A DNA stretch of 23,403 nt, taken from positions 1 to 23,403 of the IMG/VR virus record IMGVR_UViG_3300031141_000042. One strand, given 5' to 3'. The translations under genes were made by a program, and so were the position numbers. Position 1 is the stretch's first letter. Each line of letters opens with the position of its first letter. The notes beneath the pieces were generated by a model. It was not told the DNA's origin. It was given only the letters and a program-made list of their open reading frames with translations, and did not search any database. Origin of the DNA: a virus. Positions 2 to 21,618 of the stretch are shown piece after piece.

Positions 2-355
2 TTCAATAAAAAAGAAGAAACTGTTGAATTACAGGGAGTTAATGATGACGAGAATGAATATTCATTAGTATCTACTGATTTACAATTCTTCGAATCATTT
101 ACTTCAACACTAAACGAAAAAGACTGGTCAGATCCAGACATGTGGAATATCGCGGATGAATTTGCATACGACATGAATAAAATGTACGACAAAAAATCTG
201 AAGCAACTAACGATGATTTAGACGAATGGCTAGATCAATTTTCTCAAAACGCAAACATCGGTAGAAGAGGATGGAGAGACGCTAAAGTAGATCTTTTAGA
301 CGCAATAAAGGATTTAGGATTTAAAAACGTTACTGACACTGACTTTTTGTCATAA
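2..355 (+). CDS. Partial head-internal-type protein (5' end outside window)
   Basis: The reading frame is open from base 2 to the stop at 353-355, so the gene begins before the window; the ATG at 140 is only an internal methionine. About 117 residues are visible. Residues 29-39 read FFESFTSTLNE, the same aromatic-E-S-F ... L-N-E arrangement found near the start of several following genes and similar to the T4 capsid-targeting sequence (MKTYQEFIAE) with its prohead-protease site. If cut after LNE (base 118), a 78-residue acidic, tryptophan-containing product remains (starting KDWSDPD). I do not recognise a domain in it. Its neighbours carry the same signal, so it is most likely another internal head protein or the tail end of a modular polyprotein. 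The reading frame is secure; the role is inferred. Confidence 0.75.
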   Translation, partial: FNKKEETVELQGVNDDENEYSLVSTDLQFFESFTSTLNEKDWSDPDMWNIADEFAYDMNKMYDKKSEATNDDLDEWLDQFSQNANIGRRGWRDAKVDLLDAIKDLGFKNVTDTDFLS

Positions 356-371
356 ACAAAAACAAACAACA

Positions 372-680
372 ATGAAACAGGTTAGATTATTTGAACAATA
401 TGTTCATGAGAATATCTTTATAAATAATACAGAAAAGATCGTGGGAGACCATGATCTTAACCTGTTTATAAAGGCATATAAGTCATTACATAAGAATAAC
501 ATAGTAATTCACGATAAGAAGGAAGACATCACCTGGGGTTACCGAAAGGGTTCTAAGGAAGGACATTGGAAATACGATCACGAAGATTACAAATTACATT
601 CTGATTTAAACGATAATCAAACCGTAACATTAATTAACTTTAAAAAATTAGTGGATAAGAATCATCCATGGTCTAAGTAA
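372..680 (+). CDS. Small unknown protein of the internal-head cassette
   Basis: A 102-residue protein that I cannot assign to a family. It starts MKQVRLFEQYVHENIF, where an F-E-Q-Y core followed by V-H-E resembles the capsid-targeting/cleavage signal of the neighbouring genes, though less exactly. Residues 56-66 read GYRKGSKEGHW, which matches GVRKGSKSGPW at residues 336-346 of the 753-residue protein two genes downstream, suggesting a shared small domain. It has no signal peptide or membrane segment. The ATG is preceded by an A-rich leader (aaacaaaaacaaacaaca) with no Shine-Dalgarno sequence, and the stop lies one base before the next start. The reading frame is clear; the function is unknown. 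Confidence 0.7.
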   Translation: MKQVRLFEQYVHENIFINNTEKIVGDHDLNLFIKAYKSLHKNNIVIHDKKEDITWGYRKGSKEGHWKYDHEDYKLHSDLNDNQTVTLINFKKLVDKNHPWSK

Positions 681-681
681 T

Positions 682-1968
682 ATGAAAAAGATTTTATCAT
701 ACAACAATTTTATTATAGAAAAAGCACGACAAGATATTAATAACTCTGAGTTAATTCTTGAGGGTGGTGCTGCGGGTCACATGAGTCACCCCTTTGACGA
801 AAAGGACTTAACCTTTGGAGATTTCAAGAAAATCATAGAGGCAGGCTTGAGTGGTGAACTCAACTTCGAAGAGGATCCAACAGAGAAGACCGACGGCCAG
901 AATGTTTTTGCAACATATCAAGATGGCGAAGTTAAATTTGCTAGGAATAAGGGTGAAATGAAGAATCCAATGGATCTTAAAACATTCAAGCAAAAATTCG
1001 AAGGTCATCCATCTAAAATGGTTGAAGAAACTTTCCAATTTGCAGCAGAGGATTTAGCTAAAGCATTAGTTAAATTATCTTCTAAAGATTTAGAAGTATT
1101 TGCAAACGGGCTTAACTTCATGAATATGGAATTAATATATTCAAAGAATCCTAATGTAATTTATTATGATAGAGATATTATCCAATTCCATGGTATTAAA
1201 AAGACTGACGGTGAAGGAAACTTTATCGGAGAAGATGGAGCTCCAGCAAAATCAATTGTAGCTGCTCTTGCTAAAGTTAATGCAAACGTTGGAAAGGTAT
1301 TTACAATAATACCTCCACAGATAGTGAAATTAGGTAAAGATATAGATTTTGAAAAGAATAAAGATAAATTTACTAAGAAAGTTGAAGACTTAAAGAACAA
1401 ATATAAATTAACAGATGCTGATGAAGTTTCAAAGTATCACGAAATGTGGTGGAGAGATCAAATCGAATCTAATTTTCCGGATTTAACACAAGATAAAAAA
1501 GAAGGTCTATTATTAAGATGGGCTTACGGAGATAAAAAGACACTTAATTTAAGAGCTCTTGATAAAGAACTTGGAAAAGACAAAGCATCTGTAATCAAGA
1601 AGTTTGATAAAGAAGATGTTAAAAAGAAACAAAAAGAAAACATTAGACCATTTGAAGATTTATTCTTAGAATTAGGAAGTGTTATTCTTAAAAATGCAAG
1701 TAACTTTGTTGCTGCAAATCCTGCAGCTGAAATGCAAAGACTGCATACTCAAATTAGAACAGAGGCCGATAAGATTAAAAAGGGCGGAGAAGTTGCTCAA
1801 GTTAATAAAGTAATGTCTGAGCTAGAAAGATTAGATAGAATCGGAGGTATTGAGTCTATTATACCAACTGAAGGTATTGTATTTAAGTACAAAGGAAAGA
1901 TAATGAAATTAACAGGAACATTTGCTGCAATTAACCAGTTAATGGGGATCATAAAATACGGAAGATAA
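682..1968 (+). CDS. KxDG nucleotidyltransferase (DNA/RNA ligase-fold) with capsid-targeting-like N-terminus
   Basis: A 428-residue protein with motifs of the covalent nucleotidyltransferase (ligase/capping enzyme) superfamily: motif I K69-T-D-G72 with the lysine that would be nucleotidylated, a motif III-like NMELIY with E150, motif IV EGIVFK at 397-402 and motif V lysines at 406/409 (KIMKLTG). Such enzymes attach AMP or GMP to themselves and pass it to a nucleic-acid end. About 245 residues separate motifs III and IV, far more than in a minimal ligase, and this insert is mostly lysine-rich and predicted helical. The N-terminus (SYNNFIIEKARQ, then SELILEGG) has I-I-E at 13 and I-L-E at 27, suitable for prohead-protease cleavage, so the enzyme may be packaged in the head. 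No OB-fold typical of a replicative DNA ligase is evident. Substrate unknown. Confidence 0.65.
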   Translation: MKKILSYNNFIIEKARQDINNSELILEGGAAGHMSHPFDEKDLTFGDFKKIIEAGLSGELNFEEDPTEKTDGQNVFATYQDGEVKFARNKGEMKNPMDLKTFKQKFEGHPSKMVEETFQFAAEDLAKALVKLSSKDLEVFANGLNFMNMELIYSKNPNVIYYDRDIIQFHGIKKTDGEGNFIGEDGAPAKSIVAALAKVNANVGKVFTIIPPQIVKLGKDIDFEKNKDKFTKKVEDLKNKYKLTDADEVSKYHEMWWRDQIESNFPDLTQDKKEGLLLRWAYGDKKTLNLRALDKELGKDKASVIKKFDKEDVKKKQKENIRPFEDLFLELGSVILKNASNFVAANPAAEMQRLHTQIRTEADKIKKGGEVAQVNKVMSELERLDRIGGIESIIPTEGIVFKYKGKIMKLTGTFAAINQLMGIIKYGR

Positions 1969-1975
1969 ATAGAAT

Positions 1976-4237
1976 ATGAAGACACAAACAACATTTGAAT
2001 CATTTATAAATGGTTCTATCAATGAGAAAACAGACTTATATAAATATAAAAGTTCTGGAATTTATGACTTACATTTCGAGACAGACGCAGATACTGCAAA
2101 GGAACTTAAAAAGGCATACGGTAAAAAAGCAGGAGAGCGTACTGATGCAAAGCAAATTGATGCTGCTGATTATTCACTAAAAAAGTTTAGAAAAGAAATC
2201 GGTTTCGGTAATAAGGATGAAGAATATACTGGAGTATTTTTACCAGGATCTTACGCTGCTGCAATTTCTGAATTAGGAGATGGGCCTCATAAAGGATCTG
2301 TTAAGAAAGTAAAGTGGAATCAAAAGAAGTATAATAAGTGGTTAGATGATAATGCGTCAGACGGTGGAGCAGATAATGCTAATGATATGGCACAAAATGC
2401 TAAGAACGAACCGGGACTTATTGATTGGGTAAAGAAGCAATTCAAAGGAGATGATCCATTACAAAGAATCCAATGGGATATTGAAGCTTTCACAGAATCT
2501 ATAGTTACTGAATCAGTAGATACTGAAACAGTTAATTTCGTAGCATTGTATAAAAACAAAGATGATAAGAACACAATCACTAGAAGTTCAGGATTTAATG
2601 TACAATCTGAAGCTATTGAGTTTTTAAAAGATATTGAGAAAAATGGCGGTGATGGTTTAGTTGCTACAAAAGACGATGCTGTAAAACAACATTTAACTAC
2701 AAAGAAAGAATGGGACACTGCTAAGAAAACAGTTGGAATAAAAGAATCAACTATCACTGAAGGTAAATCTAAAGAAGATTACCAAGGTGAAATTGATAAA
2801 CTTAGAGATTATAATGATGAAATATTTAAAACAAAATCTAAGTCAAAATCTGATCAAGAAAGAAAGAATTTAACAAAATTAACTAACAATAATGATGCTA
2901 AGATTCAAAAATTAACTAACAAATTAGATAAGTTCTCAGAATCAGTAATTACTGAGGGTAAATGGTCTAACATTATGAAAGGAGTTAGAAAAGGATCTAA
3001 ATCTGGACCATGGACTATAGTATCTATCGAAAACGGCAAAGTTATTAATCAAGAATTAGTAACTATAATGGATGCAATTCCTGCGCATTATGAAGAAGTT
3101 AAGAAAGGATTCCCTAACGCTAAACTATCTATTGAAGATAATGAAGGTAAGCAAGTTTATAACGAATCATACTCAGTTAATTTAGAAAATTCACTTATAA
3201 AACCTCAAATGCTTAGAGAAGCATTTAGAAAAATGGGTATACCATACAAAGTAACATCAAGTGCCGATATAATGAATATCGGAGAAATACAGATTGAAAG
3301 AGTAGATTATACTGAAAAAAGAGATGAAGCTGTATTTGAATTATTAAATAATTTAGATATAACAGGATGTCAGTTAATAGAAGAATCTTCTGGTGAAACT
3401 GTAGTTGATAAAAAAGATGGATTAGTTTTATTTGATGAAGGAGTTCAATATCCTATCAGTAAATTCATATCTATTGCTAAAAAATCAACTGAAGGTAAAT
3501 ATGAGCTTAAACAAAACAATTCATTCGGTAAAGGTATTCAATTAGCACAATTCTTAAAAAAGAATTTAAAATTACAATTTCAAGCTAAAGTATACAGATC
3601 GGAATGGAATTATGGTGGAAACATGGTAGTGAGAATAACTCTTAAAGGAGATGATCGTGGTGAATTCTTTAGTTTTGGTTCAAACAATAGTACATCAAGC
3701 CCTAGATATTCTTTTGGAGATGTATTTAGTGGAGTTAAACAAAAAGACGGTACTGAATTCGAATCAGGTTATGGAATTGTACACGGATCATTTAAACAAA
3801 TAAGTAACTTCAAAGGAGTTATGGATGATATCTTACATTTATTTAACGACTATGAAAGAGTTAACGGCGTTCCTTTCACGACAAGAGCTGCTATTAAAAT
3901 CAAAAAGGTCGGAGCTAAATTAAATGCAGAATGGAGAGACAAAGTTTATCCAAAAATCATGAAAGAATATGGAATTGCTCAGAAAATGGCATCGGGAGTA
4001 TCTCGTGGTATTGAAATGAGAAGACCCACTCTTAAATCAAATAATAAGGTAGTGCATTTCTATCATGATGAGCCTAGATCACTAAGACATCCTGATGAAA
4101 ATCCAGAGTGGTCTGATAAACTAATGTCAAAACCTGAATATAACAAATACGAAAAAGCAATTTCAAAGATAGCAGATTTATGTACGAAGTTTACAGATAA
4201 GCATAGTATATCATTTGAATGGAACGCTAATAGATAA
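1976..4237 (+). CDS. Modular internal-head polyprotein with multiple prohead-protease-like sites
   Basis: A 753-residue protein that I do not recognise as a named family. It starts MKTQTTFESFINGSINEK, very close in layout to the T4 capsid-targeting sequence, with I-N-E ending at residue 17. Three more sites of the form E-S-x-[I/V]-T-E end at residues 179, 262 and 327. They divide the chain into a 162-aa block, an 83-aa block, a lysine-rich 65-aa helical block and a 426-aa C-terminal block. The 65-aa block is homologous to one in the 452-aa protein at 7712-9070. The last block contains GVRKGSKSGPW (336-346), shared with the 102-aa protein at 372-680, then a long mixed region without a catalytic motif I can name. 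The likely role is a prohead-core or injected internal protein processed into pieces. Processing is inferred from site spacing only. Confidence 0.6.
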   Translation: MKTQTTFESFINGSINEKTDLYKYKSSGIYDLHFETDADTAKELKKAYGKKAGERTDAKQIDAADYSLKKFRKEIGFGNKDEEYTGVFLPGSYAAAISELGDGPHKGSVKKVKWNQKKYNKWLDDNASDGGADNANDMAQNAKNEPGLIDWVKKQFKGDDPLQRIQWDIEAFTESIVTESVDTETVNFVALYKNKDDKNTITRSSGFNVQSEAIEFLKDIEKNGGDGLVATKDDAVKQHLTTKKEWDTAKKTVGIKESTITEGKSKEDYQGEIDKLRDYNDEIFKTKSKSKSDQERKNLTKLTNNNDAKIQKLTNKLDKFSESVITEGKWSNIMKGVRKGSKSGPWTIVSIENGKVINQELVTIMDAIPAHYEEVKKGFPNAKLSIEDNEGKQVYNESYSVNLENSLIKPQMLREAFRKMGIPYKVTSSADIMNIGEIQIERVDYTEKRDEAVFELLNNLDITGCQLIEESSGETVVDKKDGLVLFDEGVQYPISKFISIAKKSTEGKYELKQNNSFGKGIQLAQFLKKNLKLQFQAKVYRSEWNYGGNMVVRITLKGDDRGEFFSFGSNNSTSSPRYSFGDVFSGVKQKDGTEFESGYGIVHGSFKQISNFKGVMDDILHLFNDYERVNGVPFTTRAAIKIKKVGAKLNAEWRDKVYPKIMKEYGIAQKMASGVSRGIEMRRPTLKSNNKVVHFYHDEPRSLRHPDENPEWSDKLMSKPEYNKYEKAISKIADLCTKFTDKHSISFEWNANR
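2762..2956 (+). repeat. Shared 65-residue polyprotein module, copy 1
   Basis: Residues 263-327 of the 753-aa protein. They align end to end with residues 289-352 of the 452-aa protein: a conserved D-Y-Q-x-x-I-D near the start, a lysine-rich helical middle with D-K/Q-x-x-R, then L-x-K/N-L-S/F-S-E and a final V-x-x-E cleavage-like site. Each copy is bounded on both sides by [I/V]-[T/A/N]-E motifs, so the homologous unit coincides with the predicted proteolytic fragment. The similarity is at protein level; the DNA has diverged. Confidence 0.6.
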
Positions 4238-4259
4238 GACTTAAAAAGAAAAAAGATAT

Positions 4260-6140
4260 ATGGCACTTCAAAAATTAAGAGAACATTTCCAAGGAGCTAA
4301 TACTAATGAATTCCAAAGATTGTTAAAAAATAGAGTGATGGTAGTTGAGAAAATCTCAGCTCCATCTTTCTACGTTAGGAGAGTGAATGACAAGTTTGAA
4401 TACTATAAGTCTTCAAATGGAAAGCCACTTACAATTATTGATAGGACTATAATGTCCTTGTATGAGGTCGCTATCAAACACATACAGAGTTTAAATCCAA
4501 CAAACAAAGAGGAATTACCTCAAGATTATAGATTTGGATTTGAATACTTACCAGAGGCTAATGTTTCTTCAATGTCATATGACAAAGCACCTTACAATAA
4601 CTTAATATTGACACATGTTCAACAGATGACCGAGTCGGGAAAGGTTAAGAAGACTATAATAGATCCAGTTATTTTAACAAAATGGTCTAAAGTATTAGAT
4701 GTTCAACAACAAGATGTTATATTCGATGGGGTATTGAATCAATTACAAGTTGAAAAGTTAATTAAATTATTAGAGATGAATGATAAGGAATTCTCTCAAT
4801 CATTTGATTATGATATTGAAACTGACGTTGAAACTAGTTTTACTAAAGAAGTTTATAAAATATTTAATCCAAATGCAAGAGCAACAGTTCTTCATGAGGA
4901 TTTAGAACAAGAAATAGATGCATTGGTATTAAATTTTGCAGAAGGAAAGAAAATCTCTTCATTTAAATTAGAAGATTTTAGTAGAACTTCTATAAATGAA
5001 AATAGAGAAAGCTCACATATGTATCAAATTGCAATCGCAGATATACTGGAGCACTTTATCAAGTATGATTTCAAAGCAGTTCAGTTAGTTGAAGAGAGTG
5101 CAAACAGGAGATACCTGGAACTAATGTCTGTTGTATTTAACGAATATATTAATAAGAATGCATCAAGATATATTGGAGTAAATTTTGACAATGCAGAATT
5201 CTCAAACTCAGACTCATTTAAATTAAACACGAACTTTATTAAGAATGAAAAGACATTAAGACATGTTTCAAACGAAGTTCTTTCGTCTTTATTCAAAATA
5301 ACACTAGGTACATTTAGAAAACAAAAATCAAAGTCTTCAGATATTATTAACGATGACATGGTTCTTCAACTAAATAGTATTATAGATAAAATTAATGAAG
5401 CAATATTCGTAGAAAATACTGATGAAAATTCAATATATGACTATAATAACTTTATGATGCACGGCAAGATTAAAGCTAGTGTTGATATTAATGAAGCTTT
5501 AACAGTAACTCATGGAGAACAAGGTAAAGAGCTTGTAAATATATTTGTTGGAAGATTTCAACCATTTACATTAGGTCATGCTAAAGTATTAGAAGCAATT
5601 CACAAAGAGAACGGCCATCCAGTTATTGTATTTTTAATTAAAGGAAAAGCAGTAAAGAAAGGTGATGATTTTAGAAAGCCATATTCTGAGGAAATGCAAA
5701 TTGACATGTTCAAGAAAGTTAAGAAGCAGTATACATTCTTAAAAGAAATAATGGTTTTACCAAGTGCGGCAATCGATAAAATGTTTAATGCATTAAGACC
5801 TAAATACGAACCAATTCTATGGGGAACAGGAACTGATAGAATGAAATCATACGGATATCAAGTAAACAATGATTCATATAGAGATCAATTAAACGTAAAT
5901 AAAGATTTTGGTCTTTTTGAAATACCAAGGAATGATGACAATATTTCAGCAACTGCTGTTCGTAATGCATTATTAGATGGTGATGAAAAGACATTCAAGA
6001 AAATGACACCAAAGGGAATTCACAAGATGTATTCTTTATTAAAGTCAGAATTAGAAAATTCAATGGAATTAGTATCGGCATCAGCTACGATAGATAGCAA
6101 CCTAATGACGTTCGAACAATATATGAACAACCTAAAATAA
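4260..6140 (+). CDS. Two-domain protein: ligase-like N-terminal domain and NadR-type nucleotide adenylyltransferase C-terminal domain
   Basis: 626 residues. The C-terminal part is clear: G431-R-F-Q-P-F-T-L-G-H440 and ISATAVR (562-568) are the two nucleotide-binding signatures of NMN adenylyltransferases of the NadR/NadM type, which make NAD+ from NMN and ATP. The N-terminal part resembles a nucleotidyltransferase core (VVEKISAPSF around K31, then FGFEYLP and NLILTHV as motif III/IIIa-like strands). However, the usual glycine after K-x-[D/H] is replaced by Ala-Pro, so catalysis there is doubtful. V-D-I-N-E at 408-412 lies just before the adenylyltransferase domain, as if a prohead-protease-type cut could free it. 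The extreme C-terminus reads MTFEQYMNNLK, recalling the FEQY targeting core. Phage NAD+ salvage genes are known in KVP40-like phages. The adenylyltransferase assignment is firm, the N-terminal one tentative. Confidence 0.7.
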   Translation: MALQKLREHFQGANTNEFQRLLKNRVMVVEKISAPSFYVRRVNDKFEYYKSSNGKPLTIIDRTIMSLYEVAIKHIQSLNPTNKEELPQDYRFGFEYLPEANVSSMSYDKAPYNNLILTHVQQMTESGKVKKTIIDPVILTKWSKVLDVQQQDVIFDGVLNQLQVEKLIKLLEMNDKEFSQSFDYDIETDVETSFTKEVYKIFNPNARATVLHEDLEQEIDALVLNFAEGKKISSFKLEDFSRTSINENRESSHMYQIAIADILEHFIKYDFKAVQLVEESANRRYLELMSVVFNEYINKNASRYIGVNFDNAEFSNSDSFKLNTNFIKNEKTLRHVSNEVLSSLFKITLGTFRKQKSKSSDIINDDMVLQLNSIIDKINEAIFVENTDENSIYDYNNFMMHGKIKASVDINEALTVTHGEQGKELVNIFVGRFQPFTLGHAKVLEAIHKENGHPVIVFLIKGKAVKKGDDFRKPYSEEMQIDMFKKVKKQYTFLKEIMVLPSAAIDKMFNALRPKYEPILWGTGTDRMKSYGYQVNNDSYRDQLNVNKDFGLFEIPRNDDNISATAVRNALLDGDEKTFKKMTPKGIHKMYSLLKSELENSMELVSASATIDSNLMTFEQYMNNLK

Positions 6141-6183
6141 TTCTTAGATATATAATCCTATAATATAAAACATAAAATAAATA

Positions 6184-7710
6184 ATGAGCGATAATTCACA
6201 TATAAATCAATCAGACCGATTCCTTAATGAAGGAAGAGTACAGTTAAAGAGGAGATATACTGAAAATCATCCTGCTAAAACTGCTGGAATGTCTGGTAAA
6301 ATCAGAAACAAAGTATTAGAAGCTATTAAAGATGGTAAAATATCTCAAACAGATTTTGATACATTAGTCTCAGAATTATCGAATGATTCTAAAAGATGGT
6401 CTTCTAGAAACTCGAAATACTTTAGTGTTTCTGAGGAAGGAATTTCATTATCTAAATTCGGAATGAAAATCTTTAATTCAATAACAGTAAACGAAAAAAC
6501 AGAGGAGAATCCAGAAATATGGGTACCTGGTGGTTTTGATAAAGCAATATCTAAATTCCCTAATTCTCAAATCACACTAGATTTAATAAAAAAATTAGCA
6601 AAAAAATATAAAGTATTTTTAGATGATGCTGTCAAATACGTTGAGTATGGATGGGCATTAGACTTACAAGAAAACAAAAACAATATGGAAAACACTAAAT
6701 TTATTTTTGAATCATTTACGGAATTCGTAGGTTCATTAAACGAAGATTCTAATGAATCTTTAAACGAAGCATTTAAATCTTCTAAATTAAGAAATTTATT
6801 AACAATGTCATCAGCGAATGGCGGTAAACCGGAAGCTAGCTTAGGTAAAAGATTTTACGAATATACTAAAATTAAATTAGACCAAGTTGATGATAGCCAT
6901 ATATTAGATATGGATATGAACGACGCTTTTAAAGCATCTAAGGACGATGATAGAGTAATCTTTTATGTAATAGATACTGAAAAAAGAAGTCCTTATGGTG
7001 ATGATAATCCATACCCGTTGAAACCAGGTCTTTTAGCAATTTCTAGAGGAAAAGATTTCTTAGGATATGATTATAAAGGTGGAGGAAGATTTAAAGCAGG
7101 TACAAAAACACTTTCTAAAAAAGGACAAGATTTAGGAGCTGATAAAAGATATAAAGGATATGGTGCAACTGGATTATCTTCAGTTAAAAGAATTATAGAA
7201 GTTGCAGATAGAGCTTATTCAATAAGTATCTCAGCATTACAAACTCTTTTAGGATCAGCATCTAAATCGGCTGATCGTAAAGCTGCAAAAGCAGGAGCAA
7301 TCGCGTTTTTATCGCATGATGACTTTAAGAAACAAAACCAATCAAGATATATGTCGATATTGGCTAACAAAGCAGCATCACTTCCATTAGATAAATTAGT
7401 TGCAACTGCAATTGATGAAATCACTGAACAAATCAAAAATGGAATTAAATCAGGAGAAGTTGGAAGATATGGAGATCCAATCATCGGTAAGAGTAAAAAA
7501 GGAAAAGAAGTTAAATTAAAAGATGCAGGAAATCATATGTCAAATATATTAGATGATTATTCTAGATATGTTGATTATGTTAAACAAGAAGAAGAAGTTG
7601 TTGCAAAATACGGTAAGTCAGAATCTTGGTATGCTAAATCTGTTAAGGAATATGCTAAAAGAACTGCTGATAAAATCAAACAAGTAAAGGACATGTCTTA
7701 CGCTTGGTAA
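6184..7710 (+). CDS. Composite internal-head protein with a second, internal targeting-like segment
   Basis: 508 residues, family not recognised. The N-terminus has DRFLNEGR (L-N-E ending at 16). From Met168 the sequence reads MENTKFIFESF, followed by SLNE (187) and SLNE (195), which looks like a fresh capsid-targeting sequence in mid-protein. The ATG for Met168 (6685) is preceded by the A-rich stretch gaaaacaaaaacaat, the kind of leader used at true starts here, so internal initiation is possible. The first 167 residues contain IWVPGGFDKAISKFP and a KYKVFLDDAVKYVEYGW segment. The C-terminal 300 residues include a glycine-rich GYDYKGGGRFKAG run and a basic, helical tail. The upstream gap (6141-6183) is AT-rich with GATATATAAT and a TAAA-rich leader. 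Probably a fusion of two internal proteins; function unknown. Confidence 0.6.
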   Translation: MSDNSHINQSDRFLNEGRVQLKRRYTENHPAKTAGMSGKIRNKVLEAIKDGKISQTDFDTLVSELSNDSKRWSSRNSKYFSVSEEGISLSKFGMKIFNSITVNEKTEENPEIWVPGGFDKAISKFPNSQITLDLIKKLAKKYKVFLDDAVKYVEYGWALDLQENKNNMENTKFIFESFTEFVGSLNEDSNESLNEAFKSSKLRNLLTMSSANGGKPEASLGKRFYEYTKIKLDQVDDSHILDMDMNDAFKASKDDDRVIFYVIDTEKRSPYGDDNPYPLKPGLLAISRGKDFLGYDYKGGGRFKAGTKTLSKKGQDLGADKRYKGYGATGLSSVKRIIEVADRAYSISISALQTLLGSASKSADRKAAKAGAIAFLSHDDFKKQNQSRYMSILANKAASLPLDKLVATAIDEITEQIKNGIKSGEVGRYGDPIIGKSKKGKEVKLKDAGNHMSNILDDYSRYVDYVKQEEEVVAKYGKSESWYAKSVKEYAKRTADKIKQVKDMSYAW

Positions 7711-7711
7711 T

Positions 7712-9070
7712 ATGAAAGTACTTAAAGAAAATATAACACCAGCAGATATTACAGGAATGGGACCTATAAGTCTACCAACGCCAACGAAAGATGGTAGTGG
7801 AGATATTCCTGCAGGATCTGGCGATGCTAAACAAGAATACAAAAAGAAAAAAAGAATAATGGCAAAATTAAAAACATTTAAAGCATTCACTGAATCTACA
7901 TCAGTTGAAGAATCTATTATAACTGAAGCTAAATTTACTTTCTCAGAAAAAGAAGTAAAAGACGTTGCAGATAGATTAGCTAAAGCAATGGCAAAGGTAG
8001 ATAATGTACATGTTGGAGTTCATGACTTTGAATATGACAAAGGTAAAGGAGCAGGATGGGAATTATCGTTTGGTGGTGAAGACTATGATGGTGGAAGTTA
8101 TTTTATTAGAGCAAACGGAGATGTAGTTAACGCTGCAATCGGCGGAGGAACTGTTTATGGTAATATTAAATCTACAGAAAAAGACTTCATTAAATGGTTT
8201 AAAGCTAACGAATCAGTTTCTTTATTTGAAGGCGGAATGTCAGACATTTATATAATAGCACAAGACGCTAAGGATGAAACATCGTTTCTTAAAGATTTCT
8301 TTAAAGAATTTGGAGATAAAGTTAAAAAAACAGCAGATTCTATAGATTGGGCTAAATCAATATATGCCGATGCTAAAGCAATGACTTTAGAGTCTATATT
8401 AACTGAAGCTAGAGGAGATCAATTCCTTATCATAAAAGATGGTAAAGATGTTAAAGGATTCAAATCATGGAAAGGTGCAAAGAAATTTGTATCAGGAGAT
8501 AATGAATTTTCAACAGATGATATTCAATCAGCAGAATGGTACCATGACAATAAAAGTGAATCAGTAATAGCTGAAGCTAAAACAGCGCAAGATTATCAAG
8601 AAGTTATTGATAGTGCAGAATCTAAGATATGGGAATTGCAAAATTCTAAAAAATCATGGATTCCTGAAGATAAATCAAAACGAGATAAAATGATTGGATC
8701 TTTTCAAAAGAAAGTGGATGCCGCTCAAAAGAAATTAGATAATTTATCTGAAGCAGTCGTTAATGAAAAAGAAGTATCTATGCCAAGGGGTTTAGAATCA
8801 TTCGCGAATGATTTAGAATCAGAAAACAGAGACCCTCAAATACATTTAGCTACATTTGATGGAACTTCGTTTCAAGCACAATCAACTAATAAGACATGGG
8901 ACGATGGAGTTCCAGTAACTAAGAACTTTACAAGAGGAGGTTATAAGTCAGTTGGTCCTAAAGGAGAACATCACATAATTGAAGTTGACACATTCTGGTA
9001 TTTTGTAATTGGAAGAACATGGTATGCTGTTAAGAGAAAAGATTATGGAACTCCTCCGTTCGAATATTAA
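7712..9070 (+). CDS. Modular internal-head polyprotein, second example
   Basis: 452 residues, family not recognised. The first 49 residues (ITGMGPISLPTPTKDGSGD, then a lysine-rich stretch) are followed by Met50 and MAKLKTFKAFTEST, a targeting-like segment ending in I-I-T-E at 72. Further cleavage-like sites end at 173 (SLFE), 232 (SILTE), 288 (SVIAE) and 352 (AVVNE). They split the rest into pieces of about 101, 59, 56, 64 and 100 residues. The 64-aa piece is homologous to one in the 753-aa protein. The pieces look like small alpha/beta or helical domains (for example YIIAQDAKDETSFLKDF and FLIIKDGKDVKGFKSWKGA). ATG 7859 for Met50 lies behind an A-rich run, so a shorter product may also be made. 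Likely role: packaged small proteins delivered as one chain. Confidence 0.6.
   Translation: MKVLKENITPADITGMGPISLPTPTKDGSGDIPAGSGDAKQEYKKKKRIMAKLKTFKAFTESTSVEESIITEAKFTFSEKEVKDVADRLAKAMAKVDNVHVGVHDFEYDKGKGAGWELSFGGEDYDGGSYFIRANGDVVNAAIGGGTVYGNIKSTEKDFIKWFKANESVSLFEGGMSDIYIIAQDAKDETSFLKDFFKEFGDKVKKTADSIDWAKSIYADAKAMTLESILTEARGDQFLIIKDGKDVKGFKSWKGAKKFVSGDNEFSTDDIQSAEWYHDNKSESVIAEAKTAQDYQEVIDSAESKIWELQNSKKSWIPEDKSKRDKMIGSFQKKVDAAQKKLDNLSEAVVNEKEVSMPRGLESFANDLESENRDPQIHLATFDGTSFQAQSTNKTWDDGVPVTKNFTRGGYKSVGPKGEHHIIEVDTFWYFVIGRTWYAVKRKDYGTPPFEY
8576..8767 (+). repeat. Shared 64-residue polyprotein module, copy 2
   Basis: Residues 289-352 of the 452-aa protein, homologous to residues 263-327 of the 753-aa protein. 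Both start with [A/G]-K-[T/S]-x-x-D-Y-Q and end with [K/N]-[F/L]-S-E-[S/A]-V-[I/V]-[T/N]-E. See copy 1 for the alignment. Confidence 0.6.
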
Positions 9071-9089
9071 ACAAATATAAGATATAACA

Positions 9090-9494
9090 ATGAAACATTT
9101 AAAATCAATAGAATCATTCTCAGTAACAGAATCATCTAATACGGAGATTAACGAATCTATCGAATCATATTACTTTAACAAAAGTAATTTTAAAGGATTT
9201 GATTTACCAGGAAAGGGAGAAACTTTATACGCAGTTATTTCGCATAATAAAGTAGAGATAAACAAAGAACAAATACACTTAAAATTACAGAGTGATAATG
9301 TCATAGGTTCATCTTTTAAACCAGTCGTTTTATTTGTATTAAAAGACGAAGCTAGTGCAAAATCAGCGTATGACTTAGAAGTTAAAAAAGGAGGATCAGG
9401 TGCAAATCTATCGTTTTCTTTTGGAACTATTGGATCTAAAGGTTCAAATGTACCTTACGAACAAATTGAAGGTATTATCAAGACTTTAAAATAA
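9090..9494 (+). CDS. Small internal-head-type protein with targeting-like N-terminus
   Basis: 134 residues, no family recognised. The N-terminus MKHLKSIESFSVTESSNTE, followed by I-N-E-S, has the I-E-S-F core and two cleavage-like triplets (V-T-E, I-N-E) seen in the preceding genes. Cutting after INE would leave a roughly 110-residue compact domain. It contains GETLYAVISHNKVEINKEQ and a glycine/serine-rich stretch (KKGGSGANLSFSFGTIGSKG). It is the last gene of the cassette and is followed within 10 bases by a region of hairpins and a terminator. The start has an A-rich leader. The reading frame is secure; the role as a packaged protein is inferred from the signal and position. Confidence 0.65.
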   Translation: MKHLKSIESFSVTESSNTEINESIESYYFNKSNFKGFDLPGKGETLYAVISHNKVEINKEQIHLKLQSDNVIGSSFKPVVLFVLKDEASAKSAYDLEVKKGGSGANLSFSFGTIGSKGSNVPYEQIEGIIKTLK

Positions 9495-14506: not shown

Positions 14507-15385
14507 ATGAAGAAAGCATTTATATATCAGTGGATTAACAAAATTAATAATAAGAAATATATTGGATCTCACATTGGAGTGCCTGAAGACAATTATACTG
14601 GCTCAGGCACTTACTTTAAGAACGCATATCTTAAAAATCCAGAATCATTCACTAGAGTTATTTTAGAAGTAATAGAAAGTGAAGACATACATTCGGAAAT
14701 AAGAATTCTTGAAGAAAGTTATTTAAATAAAGTAGATGCTGCAAATAGCGTTGAATATTATAACATAACTAATAGATACTACGGAGGAGATACTTATTCA
14801 GGACTTAGTACTGAAGACAAGGCAAAAATGATTAAAGGTTGGAGCGAATCTGGAAGATTAGACAGATTACATAATCCACAGAAGTATATTGAATTAAAGA
14901 GAAAACAAAGTATCGCACAGAGAATTACAGGAAAGAATGTTTATCAATTTAGTAAAGATGGTTATTTGTTAAATGAGTATGATTGTTTAGAAGTAGCAGC
15001 AAATAAAACCAATACATCTAAAGGTAACTTACATAGTGCGCTGAATGAATCTAGAAATACCGCAGGAGGATTCCGATGGTCTTATAGTAAAAAACCTAAT
15101 GATTTGATACCAGTTAAACCTAGGGTATATTCTAAAACAGGAAAACAAAAGAATCCAAGTGGAAAAACAAATAAAATATTCACACAAGTATTACAATATG
15201 ACTTAGAGAATAATTTATTAAGAACTTGGAATAGTAGAAACGAAATTGAAGAAGAATTAGGTATTAGCAAAGGTATGATTAACCATGCACTTAATAACAA
15301 AGTAAAGAAAACCGGAGAATATAAAGGTTTTATTTGGAAAAAAGGTAAACAAATCACAATTGTAGAATATAATAACAAATCTTAA
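14507..15385 (+). CDS. Free-standing GIY-YIG homing endonuclease (Seg-like)
   Basis: 292 residues. F5-I-Y7 and Y18-I-G20 form the GIY-YIG signature, R50 and an ILEESYLNK segment (E69/E70) supply likely catalytic residues, and GGDTYSGLSTEDKAKMIKG is a NUMOD-like linker. Two repeats, VYQFSKDG...FRWSY (145-193) and VLQYDLEN...FIWKK (228-279), look like NUMOD1/IENR-type DNA-binding helix-turn-helix modules. Such enzymes cut a specific site in related phage genomes and spread themselves and flanking markers. It stands between the gp56 homologue and the polymerase N-terminal half, 10 bases before the latter. T4 segF is also next to gene 56. It is not inside an intron or intein as far as can be seen. 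Confidence 0.85.
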   Translation: MKKAFIYQWINKINNKKYIGSHIGVPEDNYTGSGTYFKNAYLKNPESFTRVILEVIESEDIHSEIRILEESYLNKVDAANSVEYYNITNRYYGGDTYSGLSTEDKAKMIKGWSESGRLDRLHNPQKYIELKRKQSIAQRITGKNVYQFSKDGYLLNEYDCLEVAANKTNTSKGNLHSALNESRNTAGGFRWSYSKKPNDLIPVKPRVYSKTGKQKNPSGKTNKIFTQVLQYDLENNLLRTWNSRNEIEEELGISKGMINHALNNKVKKTGEYKGFIWKKGKQITIVEYNNKS

Positions 15386-15395
15386 AAATACATTA

Positions 15396-16793
15396 ATGAT
15401 ATTAGATATTGAGCAAAGAGACAAGGACGTAATTGTATCGTATTACGATAAAGAAGGAAAAGTTGCATATAAACAATATCCAATAGCACAATATCAGAAT
15501 TGGTATATTTGTGGTGAAAAAGAAAAAGGAGTAAGTAAGGAATATACAAATTGGGATGGCCGCCCTGTTAAATTAGGATACGGTCGTCAATTTAATAAGT
15601 TTTCTCTTAATTACTTCATTGATGGTTTACCGGAAAAAGATCGTGAAGAGATCTTAGCATATAACTTGCCAAAGACATATTTCGTAGATATTGAAACAGA
15701 AATTGTTGATGGTTTTCCAAAAGCAGAAGAAGCGAAAACAAGAATCTTATCATTCTCAATTATTACACCTGATCGTAAGGCAATCGTTTTAGGATTAGAA
15801 GATATGGCCCCTGATAAAATTCAAAAGATCGAAGATGATACTAACGAATATTTTAAAGACTTTGATCAAGATTGGGAATTTAAATACCATAAGTTCAAGA
15901 GCGAGTATGATATGGTTTATACTTTCTTAATGAAGTTCTTACCCAAGTTCCCTATGATGACTGGTTGGAATTTTATAAACTATGACTGGCAATATATCGT
16001 AAACAGAAGTAAAATATTACAGATAGATATTACTGAAGTTGGTATGACGGGGAAAGTTGATAGAAACGACAGTAGACCTTTGCATATCGGAATCTTAGAT
16101 TACATGCAACTGTATGACAAATACGATCGTAGTGTTAAAGTGAAAGAATCTAATTCACTCGATTACGTATCAGGTCAAGTTTTAAATGTTAAAAAAATAA
16201 AGTATACTGGGGGATTACAAGATCTATACAGAGATAACTTTGTTAAATACATTTATTATAATGTAGTCGATTCAGTATTGGTATATTATATAGACCAGAA
16301 ACTTAAATCAATGGAAGTTCTTTTAACATTGGCAAATATTACAAAGATGCCTCTTTATAAAGCAGCTTCGCCAGTGGCAGTTACAGAATCCCTAATGGCT
16401 AGGAAATTAGCAGAACAAGGAATGCGAATTGGAACTGAACAAAAGGAAGACTTTGAAAAAAGCACACAATACGCAGGAGCTTATGTTAAAGAACCATTAG
16501 TTGGATATTATGAAGGAGTAACGGCATTTGATTTTGCTTCCCTATATCCTTCAATAATGAGACAATTTAATATATCACCAGATGCATATATTGAACAAGT
16601 TAAGAAACACGAAATAAAAGAGAGAAGAAAGGATAATGAAGTAATTGTATGTGATAATGGCGTTGTATATTCAAAAGAAGATTCTGTTCTTAAGAAAATA
16701 CTTTCAGATTTATATAATCAACGTGTGGAATACAAAGATGAGTCATATAAATACTTTACTAAAGCTGATAATCTCAAAAAAAGATTAAAATAA
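15396..16793 (+). CDS. 43A: DNA polymerase, N-terminal half (exonuclease and palm motif A), split gp43
   Basis: 465 residues of a T4 gp43-type family B polymerase. Exonuclease motifs are complete: ExoI D98-I-E100, ExoII WNFINYDWQYI with D197, ExoIII YYNVVDSVLVYYID with D292. Palm motif A is FDFASLYPSIMRQFNISPD (D379, SLYPS 382-386), almost the gp43 consensus. The protein stops after SDLYNQRVEYKDESYKYFT and a basic tail, where gp43 enters the first long fingers helix, so motifs B and C are missing. They are encoded 3.6 kb downstream at 20416-21618. The end is a normal stop with no intein-like sequence, so this is a true split gene whose product must pair with the other half. Proofreading residues are intact. 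Confidence 0.9.
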   Translation: MILDIEQRDKDVIVSYYDKEGKVAYKQYPIAQYQNWYICGEKEKGVSKEYTNWDGRPVKLGYGRQFNKFSLNYFIDGLPEKDREEILAYNLPKTYFVDIETEIVDGFPKAEEAKTRILSFSIITPDRKAIVLGLEDMAPDKIQKIEDDTNEYFKDFDQDWEFKYHKFKSEYDMVYTFLMKFLPKFPMMTGWNFINYDWQYIVNRSKILQIDITEVGMTGKVDRNDSRPLHIGILDYMQLYDKYDRSVKVKESNSLDYVSGQVLNVKKIKYTGGLQDLYRDNFVKYIYYNVVDSVLVYYIDQKLKSMEVLLTLANITKMPLYKAASPVAVTESLMARKLAEQGMRIGTEQKEDFEKSTQYAGAYVKEPLVGYYEGVTAFDFASLYPSIMRQFNISPDAYIEQVKKHEIKERRKDNEVIVCDNGVVYSKEDSVLKKILSDLYNQRVEYKDESYKYFTKADNLKKRLK

Positions 16794-20415: not shown

Positions 20416-21618
20416 ATGACTGATATAGAACAATTAATAGAGAAACCAGAAAACGAACTTAGCGTTGAAGAAACGACAGTATTGATAGCACATTACGAAC
20501 AGATGTCTGCTAAATATACTGCATATGAGCAAGCTGTCAAAGTAACGTTAAACTCGATTTATGGTGCATTTGGAAATAAATGGTTTCATTTCTTTGATAT
20601 AGAAATTGCAGAGTCAATTACCTTACAAGGTCAATCTGCTATTTTATATTCTGAAAAGATACTTAATAAGTATTTTCAAGAATTCTGGCCAAAGGATACT
20701 GCAGCTCACGAGCATTTTAATATTAAAGTAAAAGGAAGGTTAGTTAGACCATCAGTTGTTTATATTGACACAGATTCATGTTATGTTCAGTTTGAAGAAA
20801 TGTATGAATCTATTGAATGGTTAGGGCCAGACGAGCTTTCAATAGATAAATTCATTATGGAGTTGTATAATTTTAGAATTAAAGATTATATATCAAAATG
20901 TATGCAGAAATATGCAGAAGTAACTAATACAGAAAACTTCTTATATTTTGATATGGAAACAATAGCATACTCTGGAATATGGTTAGCTAAGAAAAAATAC
21001 TTGCAGAATATCGCGTGGGAAGATAAACTTGATATTGATGATAGATACCCTTCTCTTAAGAAGATTAAAACTATCGGATTCGATACGATACAGAGTTCTA
21101 CACCGGCGCTTGCACGTAAGCATTTAACAGAGGCACTTCAATTAGTACTTTCTGAGAAACCAACAGCAGATCTTTTAAAGAAGCTTGTTGAATATCTTAA
21201 GAAATGTAAGAAGGAATTCAGACTTGCAGATATAGACCAAATTGCGTTTAACAAAAGAACGAACAACATCGAGAAATATATTGTAGATGATACCATCGAA
21301 TTCCAGATTGGACTTAAATGTCCTCCTAATGTAAGAGCTGCTGGATTCTACAATTTCTTAATGAATACCAATCCTAAGTACAAGAACAAGTATAAGATGA
21401 TAGGTAACGGAGAAAAGTTAAAACTATATAATTGTAAACATCATGTATCAGACATGTTCGCATATATGCCAGGTGATCACCCTTATGAGATTGCGCCTGA
21501 GGTTGATTATGAAATTCAATTTGAAAAAAGTGTAATCGATCCTTTGAATAGGGTATTAAAAGCTGTAGGTTTACAACTACTAAATAGAAACTTAATTTAC
21601 TCAACATCATTATTTTAA
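20416..21618 (+). CDS. 43B: DNA polymerase, C-terminal half (fingers, palm motifs B/C, thumb), split gp43
   Basis: 400 residues completing the gp43-type polymerase. Motif B is QAVKVTLNSIYGAFGN (K42, N46, Y49, G50) and motif C VVYIDTDSCYV (D118, D120). KKKYLQNIAWEDK and the thumb segment RAAGFYNFLM are typical. The N-terminus (IEQLIEKPENELSVEETT) corresponds to the fingers loop of T4 gp43, so with the 465-aa half the total is 865 residues against 898 in T4 and nothing essential is missing. The distance from motif A to motif B would be about 128 residues (152 in T4). The C-terminus ends STSLF, just where T4 gp43 has ASLFDMFDF, the clamp-binding tail, which is therefore shortened. The split falls in a solvent-exposed helical hairpin, a plausible place for two chains to reassemble. 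Confidence 0.9.
   Translation: MTDIEQLIEKPENELSVEETTVLIAHYEQMSAKYTAYEQAVKVTLNSIYGAFGNKWFHFFDIEIAESITLQGQSAILYSEKILNKYFQEFWPKDTAAHEHFNIKVKGRLVRPSVVYIDTDSCYVQFEEMYESIEWLGPDELSIDKFIMELYNFRIKDYISKCMQKYAEVTNTENFLYFDMETIAYSGIWLAKKKYLQNIAWEDKLDIDDRYPSLKKIKTIGFDTIQSSTPALARKHLTEALQLVLSEKPTADLLKKLVEYLKKCKKEFRLADIDQIAFNKRTNNIEKYIVDDTIEFQIGLKCPPNVRAAGFYNFLMNTNPKYKNKYKMIGNGEKLKLYNCKHHVSDMFAYMPGDHPYEIAPEVDYEIQFEKSVIDPLNRVLKAVGLQLLNRNLIYSTSLF

Follow-up and report, generated by a model that had tools for sequence, protein, structure and literature searches.

The window, a 23.4-kb stretch of DNA that constitutes a complete virus record by itself, raises the question of what is encoded at positions 2-9494, where eight genes form a single closely spaced run on the + strand and just one, the gene for a 626-aa protein, has a significant Pfam match. 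We conclude that this run is very probably a head-cargo cassette, most of whose products carry a T4-type leader, would be cut by the prohead protease behind the leader and, in the long proteins, at internal sites as well, and are probably ejected; targeting, cleavage and ejection are all inferred.

The leader and the genes that carry it

The window is a fragment of a marine T4-like phage. Its family-B DNA polymerase is split and has matches in T4-like and giant phages (LR756500, Sphingomonas PAU, Chryseobacterium MA9V), and a search of an annotated phage collection with the window returned no near-identical phage. The two polymerase ORFs (15396-16793 and 20416-21618) are separated by ribonucleotide reductase-like genes and a clamp-like gene, and 14507-15385 resembles a GIY-YIG endonuclease. 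Relatives were collected by homology to the 428-aa protein of the cassette; T4, PAU, MA9V-2, Mel-JY01 and S-SCSM1 were also compared.

Table 1. Cassette genes at positions 2-9494 of the window, with predicted leaders, modules and cleavage sites (a slash marks the putative cut)
Feature	Coordinates	Strand	Leader, modules and putative sites
Truncated gene, C-terminal piece	2..355	+	FFESFTSTLNE/KDW, putative internal site, E at 116-118
Small protein, predicted cargo	372..680	+	Leader MKQVRLFEQYVHE/N, E at 408-410; profile score 18.3, exact T4 register
Ligase-like nucleotidyltransferase, predicted cargo, 428 aa	682..1968	+	Leader MKKILSYNNFIIE/K, E at 718-720
753-aa string, about five modules	1976..4237	+	Sites SINE 17, IVTE 179, TITE 262, VITE 327
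626-aa protein	4260..6140	+	N-terminal domain, DINE/A site (E at 5493-5495), NMN-adenylyltransferase-like domain
508-aa fusion	6184..7710	+	FLNE/GR, KRRYTENHPA module, embedded leader MENTKFIFESF..SLNE, SLNE/AF module
452-aa string	7712..9070	+	ENITP head, embedded leader MAKLKTFKAF..IITE, site IITE 72
Small protein, predicted cargo	9090..9494	+	Degenerate leader MKHLKSIESFSVTE

In the relatives, an N-terminal leader, MKhIKLFExF[ILV]NE, heads up to about 30 genes with otherwise unrelated products. Its general form, M-K-x(1-6)-[FY]-x-x-[FY]-[ILV]-x-E, has the aromatic-xx-aromatic-hydrophobic-x-E register of the T4 capsid-targeting sequence. In published work, mutants of the ten-residue T4 leader assign targeting to residues 4 and 7 and processing to residues 8 and 10, and the spacing of these residues is identical in the relatives' leader (PMC9026906). 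Matches to the strict T4 register, [FY]xx[FYW][ILVM]xE close to the N terminus, far exceeded those in shuffled sequences: 28 versus 0.8 in the 236-kb relative G012, 26 versus 0.9 in G011, 14 versus 0.5 in G004, 9 versus 0.4 in G002, 9 versus 0.5 in G003 and 8 versus 0.7 in G006. The same expression placed at residue 100 of the proteins gave 0-2 matches. Two window genes fit the strict register (0.085 in shuffles), 372-680 with FEQYVHE and 682-1968 with YNNFIIE. No gene right of 9494 does, which agrees with the remark in a preliminary description of this DNA that the replication genes further right lack the motif.

As a second test, a leader profile was trained on G012 alone, with the window left out. 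Above 10 bits it matched 30 genes in G011, 10-12 in each of G002, G003 and G004, and 5 in G006; a small gene between portal and protease was among the leader genes recovered in relatives. In the window, the 753-aa string scored 13.0 and the small gene at 372-680 scored 18.3. The profile gave a single match above 10 bits in T4, not an internal protein, and the MKTYQEFIAE genes scored 6.4. Leaders in the same scans were few in T4 and numbered 5 to 31 in large relatives, bearing out the proposal that the toolkit is large next to that of T4; the largest relatives carry about 30 leader genes in 17-20 kb. An alignment of 99 leader proteins was conserved over the first 13 or so residues only (MKxIKLFExFxNE), the mature parts being unrelated. 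The late promoter motif TATAAAT was not enriched upstream of leader genes.

Lineage-specific leaders were seen elsewhere, as MKT[LI]xxLYExxLNE on several small genes of PAU and as MKTFxxFINEA in MA9V-2; they look like the outcome of co-evolution of the leader with the protease or core.

Every peptide quoted in the preliminary description is present in the translated ORFs, but the T4-like layout ascribed to them is exact only in the two strict-register genes and is degenerate or internal in the genes starting at 1976, 6184, 7712 and 9090. Orthologs partly rescue the degenerate segments: FESFINGSINE, at the head of the 753-aa string, reads FESFVNE in an ortholog, and the start and embedded segment of the 508-aa fusion read FEEFIGE and FEQFINE. 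The last gene has IESFSVTE, off register by one residue, and its orthologs are either standalone (MKHLKNFESF, MKNIKTFESF) or embedded behind ES or NE sites. A convincing N-terminal leader was looked for in the 626-aa protein and is absent. Orthologs of the small gene at 372-680 begin MKHIKLYEQFVSE and MKHVKLFEQFVNE. No homolog of the left-edge ORF was found in relatives; because this ORF is also truncated, its assignment is weak and its leader segment undecided. The gene 5' of the ligase-like gene in relatives is a multi-site leader protein.

In the 428-aa protein the leader is followed by a linker and then by a second site, LILE/GGAAGH (E at 760-762). Its family comprises 81 homologs with 44 distinct N-termini, nearly all of which keep M-K..[YF]xxF[ILV]xE with a free linker behind it (one variant leader reads FEQWLTD), and the second [LIV]xE lies immediately 5' of an invariant GGAAGHM in 44/44. 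K69-T-D71-G72 (KxDG), E397-G398-x-V400 (EGxV) and K409 are invariant, as in ATP-dependent ligases. Foldseek returned T4 Rnl1/Rnl2 and an archaeal RNA ligase only weakly (E 0.2-4) from a mediocre model (pLDDT 68); ligase identity is a lead, not a proof. The C-terminal domain of the 626-aa protein matches PF01467 / CTP_transf_like (E 1.8e-8, 35.1 bits versus a cut-off of 21) and is likely NMNAT-like and NAD-related, enzyme activity and substrate being inferred. Most cassette modules have no known function; ligase-like and NMNAT-like activities are likely, again by inference.

Head genes and virion proteins

Peptidase_S77, the gp21-type prohead protease, exceeds the Pfam cut-off in 13 of 16 relatives, but the window, a fragment, contains no protease, capsid or core gene. 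In relatives, the protease, portal and capsid genes neighbour a leader-bearing small gene: a small acidic one sits between a portal-like gene and the protease, and a second leader gene lies 3' of the capsid-like gene. The capsid protein itself starts MANLINE/A; capsid and protease identity is supported also by matches to S-SCSM1. With a core-binding address one would expect core-type genes to share the cargo leader, although this remains an inference.

The ORF that holds the protease domain is unusually long (640-820 aa, e.g. G004 104769-106973) and extends far beyond the domain on the C-terminal side, and G012, G013 and G014 have an additional short S77 match. A module at aa 115-230 of a G011 gene (L198, 1790-2488) is shared with haloarchaeal and marine viruses, where it is annotated as portal, prohead protease or capsid.

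Evidence from virions comes from cyanophages. ORF89-93 of S-SCSM1 (MK867354) are adjacent genes annotated as virion proteins, and mass spectrometry of its virions identified 45 proteins, NMNAT included (PMC9602691). This NMNAT (ORF91) is homologous to the adenylyltransferase domain of the window family (E about 1e-8) and starts MKSFLQFLKE/A, in exact T4 register. ORF93, a small protein, is homologous (58%) to the relatives' MPSTSKAQQ module; these two are the only sequence matches to the cassette family among ORF89-93. NMNAT-like proteins are also reported from virions of S-CBWM1 and one more phage (PMC9602691), and a cytidylyltransferase was detected in those of S-CREM2 (PMC10665884). The S-SCSM1 authors caution that such proteins may persist in suspension after purification (PMC9602691). 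Collectively, the genome-wide leader, its T4 register, the S77 protease of relatives, the leader on core-type genes adjacent to those for portal, protease and capsid, and the S-SCSM1 virion block with its two homologs support the earlier proposal of head loading and prohead-protease processing.

Leader proteins of relatives include an Acb1-like 2H enzyme (above the Pfam cut-off), ATP-grasp ligases, acetyltransferases and a DUF5824 domain; PADLOC returned few and weak matches to leader proteins. The Acb1-like anti-CBASS 2H phosphoesterase has a perfect leader, MKRIKLFEEFLNE, in G011 (L198:2454-3017) and G012 (L107:4977-5540, - strand), near leader genes for an ATP-grasp ligase or DUF5824.

Module strings and putative internal sites

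The large cassette proteins look like strings of beads, with modules that are separate leader genes in one phage and fused in another. The 753-aa protein has its counterpart in three leader-tagged proteins that are separate in relatives and match it at aa 1-173 (169-176 aa long), at about 328-400 (84 or 180 aa) and at 474-750 (292 aa). It has a further possible site at LIE 469. The 508-aa protein equals two separate leader genes, and modules of the 452-aa protein, which has additional sites at SLFE 173, ILTE 232, VIAE 288 and VVNE 352, recur in other orders and with other neighbours. Such shuffling was seen over 80 loci and six genomes. The window strings matched no peptidase family.

Sites between modules are of the [ILV]xE, ES[IV]xTE type. 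Strict ES[IV]xTE matches number 5 in the window (0.13 in shuffles), 8 in G012 (0.07) and 5 in G006 (0.23), and 0 or 1 in T4, PAU, MA9V-2 and Mel-JY01. Directly before the AF module (6769-7707 in the window), for which a fold search found no relative, E at -1 and a hydrophobic residue at -3 are kept in 43/43 distinct contexts of widely differing origin (standalone leader, embedded fossil leader, ESVVNE, ESLITE). The KRRYTENHPA module has [ILVMF]xE at its boundary in 43/43 contexts, and the 626-aa family has [ILV]xE/[AG]L at a constant distance 5' of the adenylyltransferase GRFxP motif in 46/46 distinct contexts. Since 2.2% of random positions carry [ILVMF]xE, lone sites prove little; moreover, contexts of one module family are related, so these counts are not independent trials. 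When embedded and standalone copies were compared in a leader-specific test, a site lay within 4 aa of the junction in 39 of 159 cases versus 5.3 expected by chance; on the complete protein set, such a test was diluted (117 versus 54). Embedded copies frequently retain the entire former leader. At L074:4144-5685, where the upstream module is missing, the inner site just behind the leader reads VVNK, not VVNE, as if relaxed. The conserved DINE/A site of the 626-aa protein, the repeated internal ES[IV]xTE sites and the concatenated, shuffled-module architecture had not been part of the preliminary description.

Proposed mechanism, alternatives and known systems

We propose that the leader of most cassette proteins would bind the prohead core, drawing the proteins into the prohead, where a gp21/S77-type protease would cut behind the E of [ILV]xE and remove the leader. 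In long proteins the same protease would also cut at internal [ILV]xE sites, either ES[IV]xTE or a fossil leader, to yield separate mature modules that would remain in the head and probably be ejected with the DNA. Because a single leader brings in the whole string, modules could be added, dropped and rearranged as genes fuse or split at the sites. Loading into the head is likely, with targeting inferred and no proteomics for the window phage or close relatives. Cleavage is likely at N-terminal leaders and probable between modules, in both cases inferred from sequence conservation, and ejection into the host is plausible, also by inference. On balance we favor the wider view that, in a clade of marine T4-like phages, much of the injected arsenal is encoded as head-targeted polyproteins, whose interchangeable modules are cut apart by the prohead protease inside the capsid and recombine by fusion and fission, the cargo including an Acb1-like anti-CBASS enzyme in some relatives.

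The leaders might instead be true head-targeting signals on long proteins that lose only the leader and otherwise stay whole as polyvalent proteins, with ES[IV]xTE serving as a flexible linker. Linkers rich in Glu, Ser and Thr are common, which counts for this explanation, and multidomain injected proteins exist in other phages (PMC5512222). We nonetheless consider it unlikely: E at -1 and the hydrophobic residue at -3 persist in every AF-module and 626-aa-family context while the flanks differ, the L074 module that moved behind its own leader has lost the inner Glu, and embedded copies often keep an entire former leader.

Cleavage within the head would also be misplaced if the leader directed proteins elsewhere, such as the host membrane or the phage replication compartment, and another protease cut the E site. 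Direct localization data are absent, and some leader proteins (ATP-grasp, GNAT, Acb1-like) match enzymes usually thought to act in the infected cell. Yet the small gene flanked by portal and protease has the leader too, as does the gene 3' of the capsid gene, the capsid gene starts with NLINE/A, and NMNAT and MPSTSKAQQ homologs are among S-SCSM1 virion proteins, making another destination very improbable. Tight tandem gene packing, heavy reshuffling and raised third-base identity in the leader's K and L codons could point to a DNA- or translation-level element, such as a recombination repeat or start-codon context. However, third-base identity at F7, F10, N12 and E13 does not exceed the approximate codon-usage expectation, F and Y as well as I, L and V replace one another, and T4, MA9V-2 and S-SCSM1 show the same register among different surrounding residues. 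The leader codons being largely saturated synonymously, selection has acted on the protein and recent DNA copying is not indicated; an origin as a DNA repeat was rejected on the third-base evidence, and we give a nucleic acid-level element scarcely any credence.

If head targeting and internal cleavage hold true, the leader is a sequence-only marker of phage head contents, and predicted injected cargo becomes countable in uncultured phages. Genomes would yield a candidate list of early counter-defence and take-over proteins, two relatives having a leader-headed Acb1-like protein. It would further suggest that a prohead protease can process polyproteins and that modules are shuffled with the cleavage sites as joints, the virus probably delivering a variable assortment of finished proteins to the cell together with its DNA. 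In the literature, with only open-licence papers covered, no account of a prohead protease cutting strings of this kind was found.

Known systems share parts of this design. The ejection proteins of phiKZ and SPN3US resemble the cassette in forming a large packaged set in which a gp21-like protease cuts behind Glu, at several places per propeptide; those cuts remove propeptides, and the portions of the reports available to us contain neither a short common leader nor release of several mature modules (PMC10052503, PMC9026906). Polyvalent proteins of the DarA/DdrB type are, like the cassette strings, multi-domain and mosaic, with mobile domains in varying order (PMC5512222). They are predicted to be packaged and released as units, and their authors drew a comparison with eukaryotic-virus polyproteins (PMC5512222). 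Their proposed processor is an embedded metallopeptidase, frequent but not universal (PMC5512222), whereas in the cassette strings the prohead protease would cut [ILV]xE. S-SCSM1 is alike in its leader-headed NMNAT, its MPSTSKAQQ-type small protein and their adjoining genes, but has few leaders and a free-standing NMNAT gene. The closest parallel is with T4 IPI-III (MKTYQEFIAE, cut by gp21 at [LI]xE), which share with the relatives the aromatic4-xx-aromatic7-hydrophobic8-x-E10 spacing, the N-terminal place, a gp21-family protease and unrelated mature proteins with the leader alone in common; T4 genes were picked up by the same scan as the relatives' leaders. In the relatives the leader is as a rule three residues longer and heads as many as about 30 genes, where T4 has a handful, and what looks new relative to the T4 capsid-targeting sequence is large proteins built as strings of modules joined at putative [ILV]xE cleavage sites.
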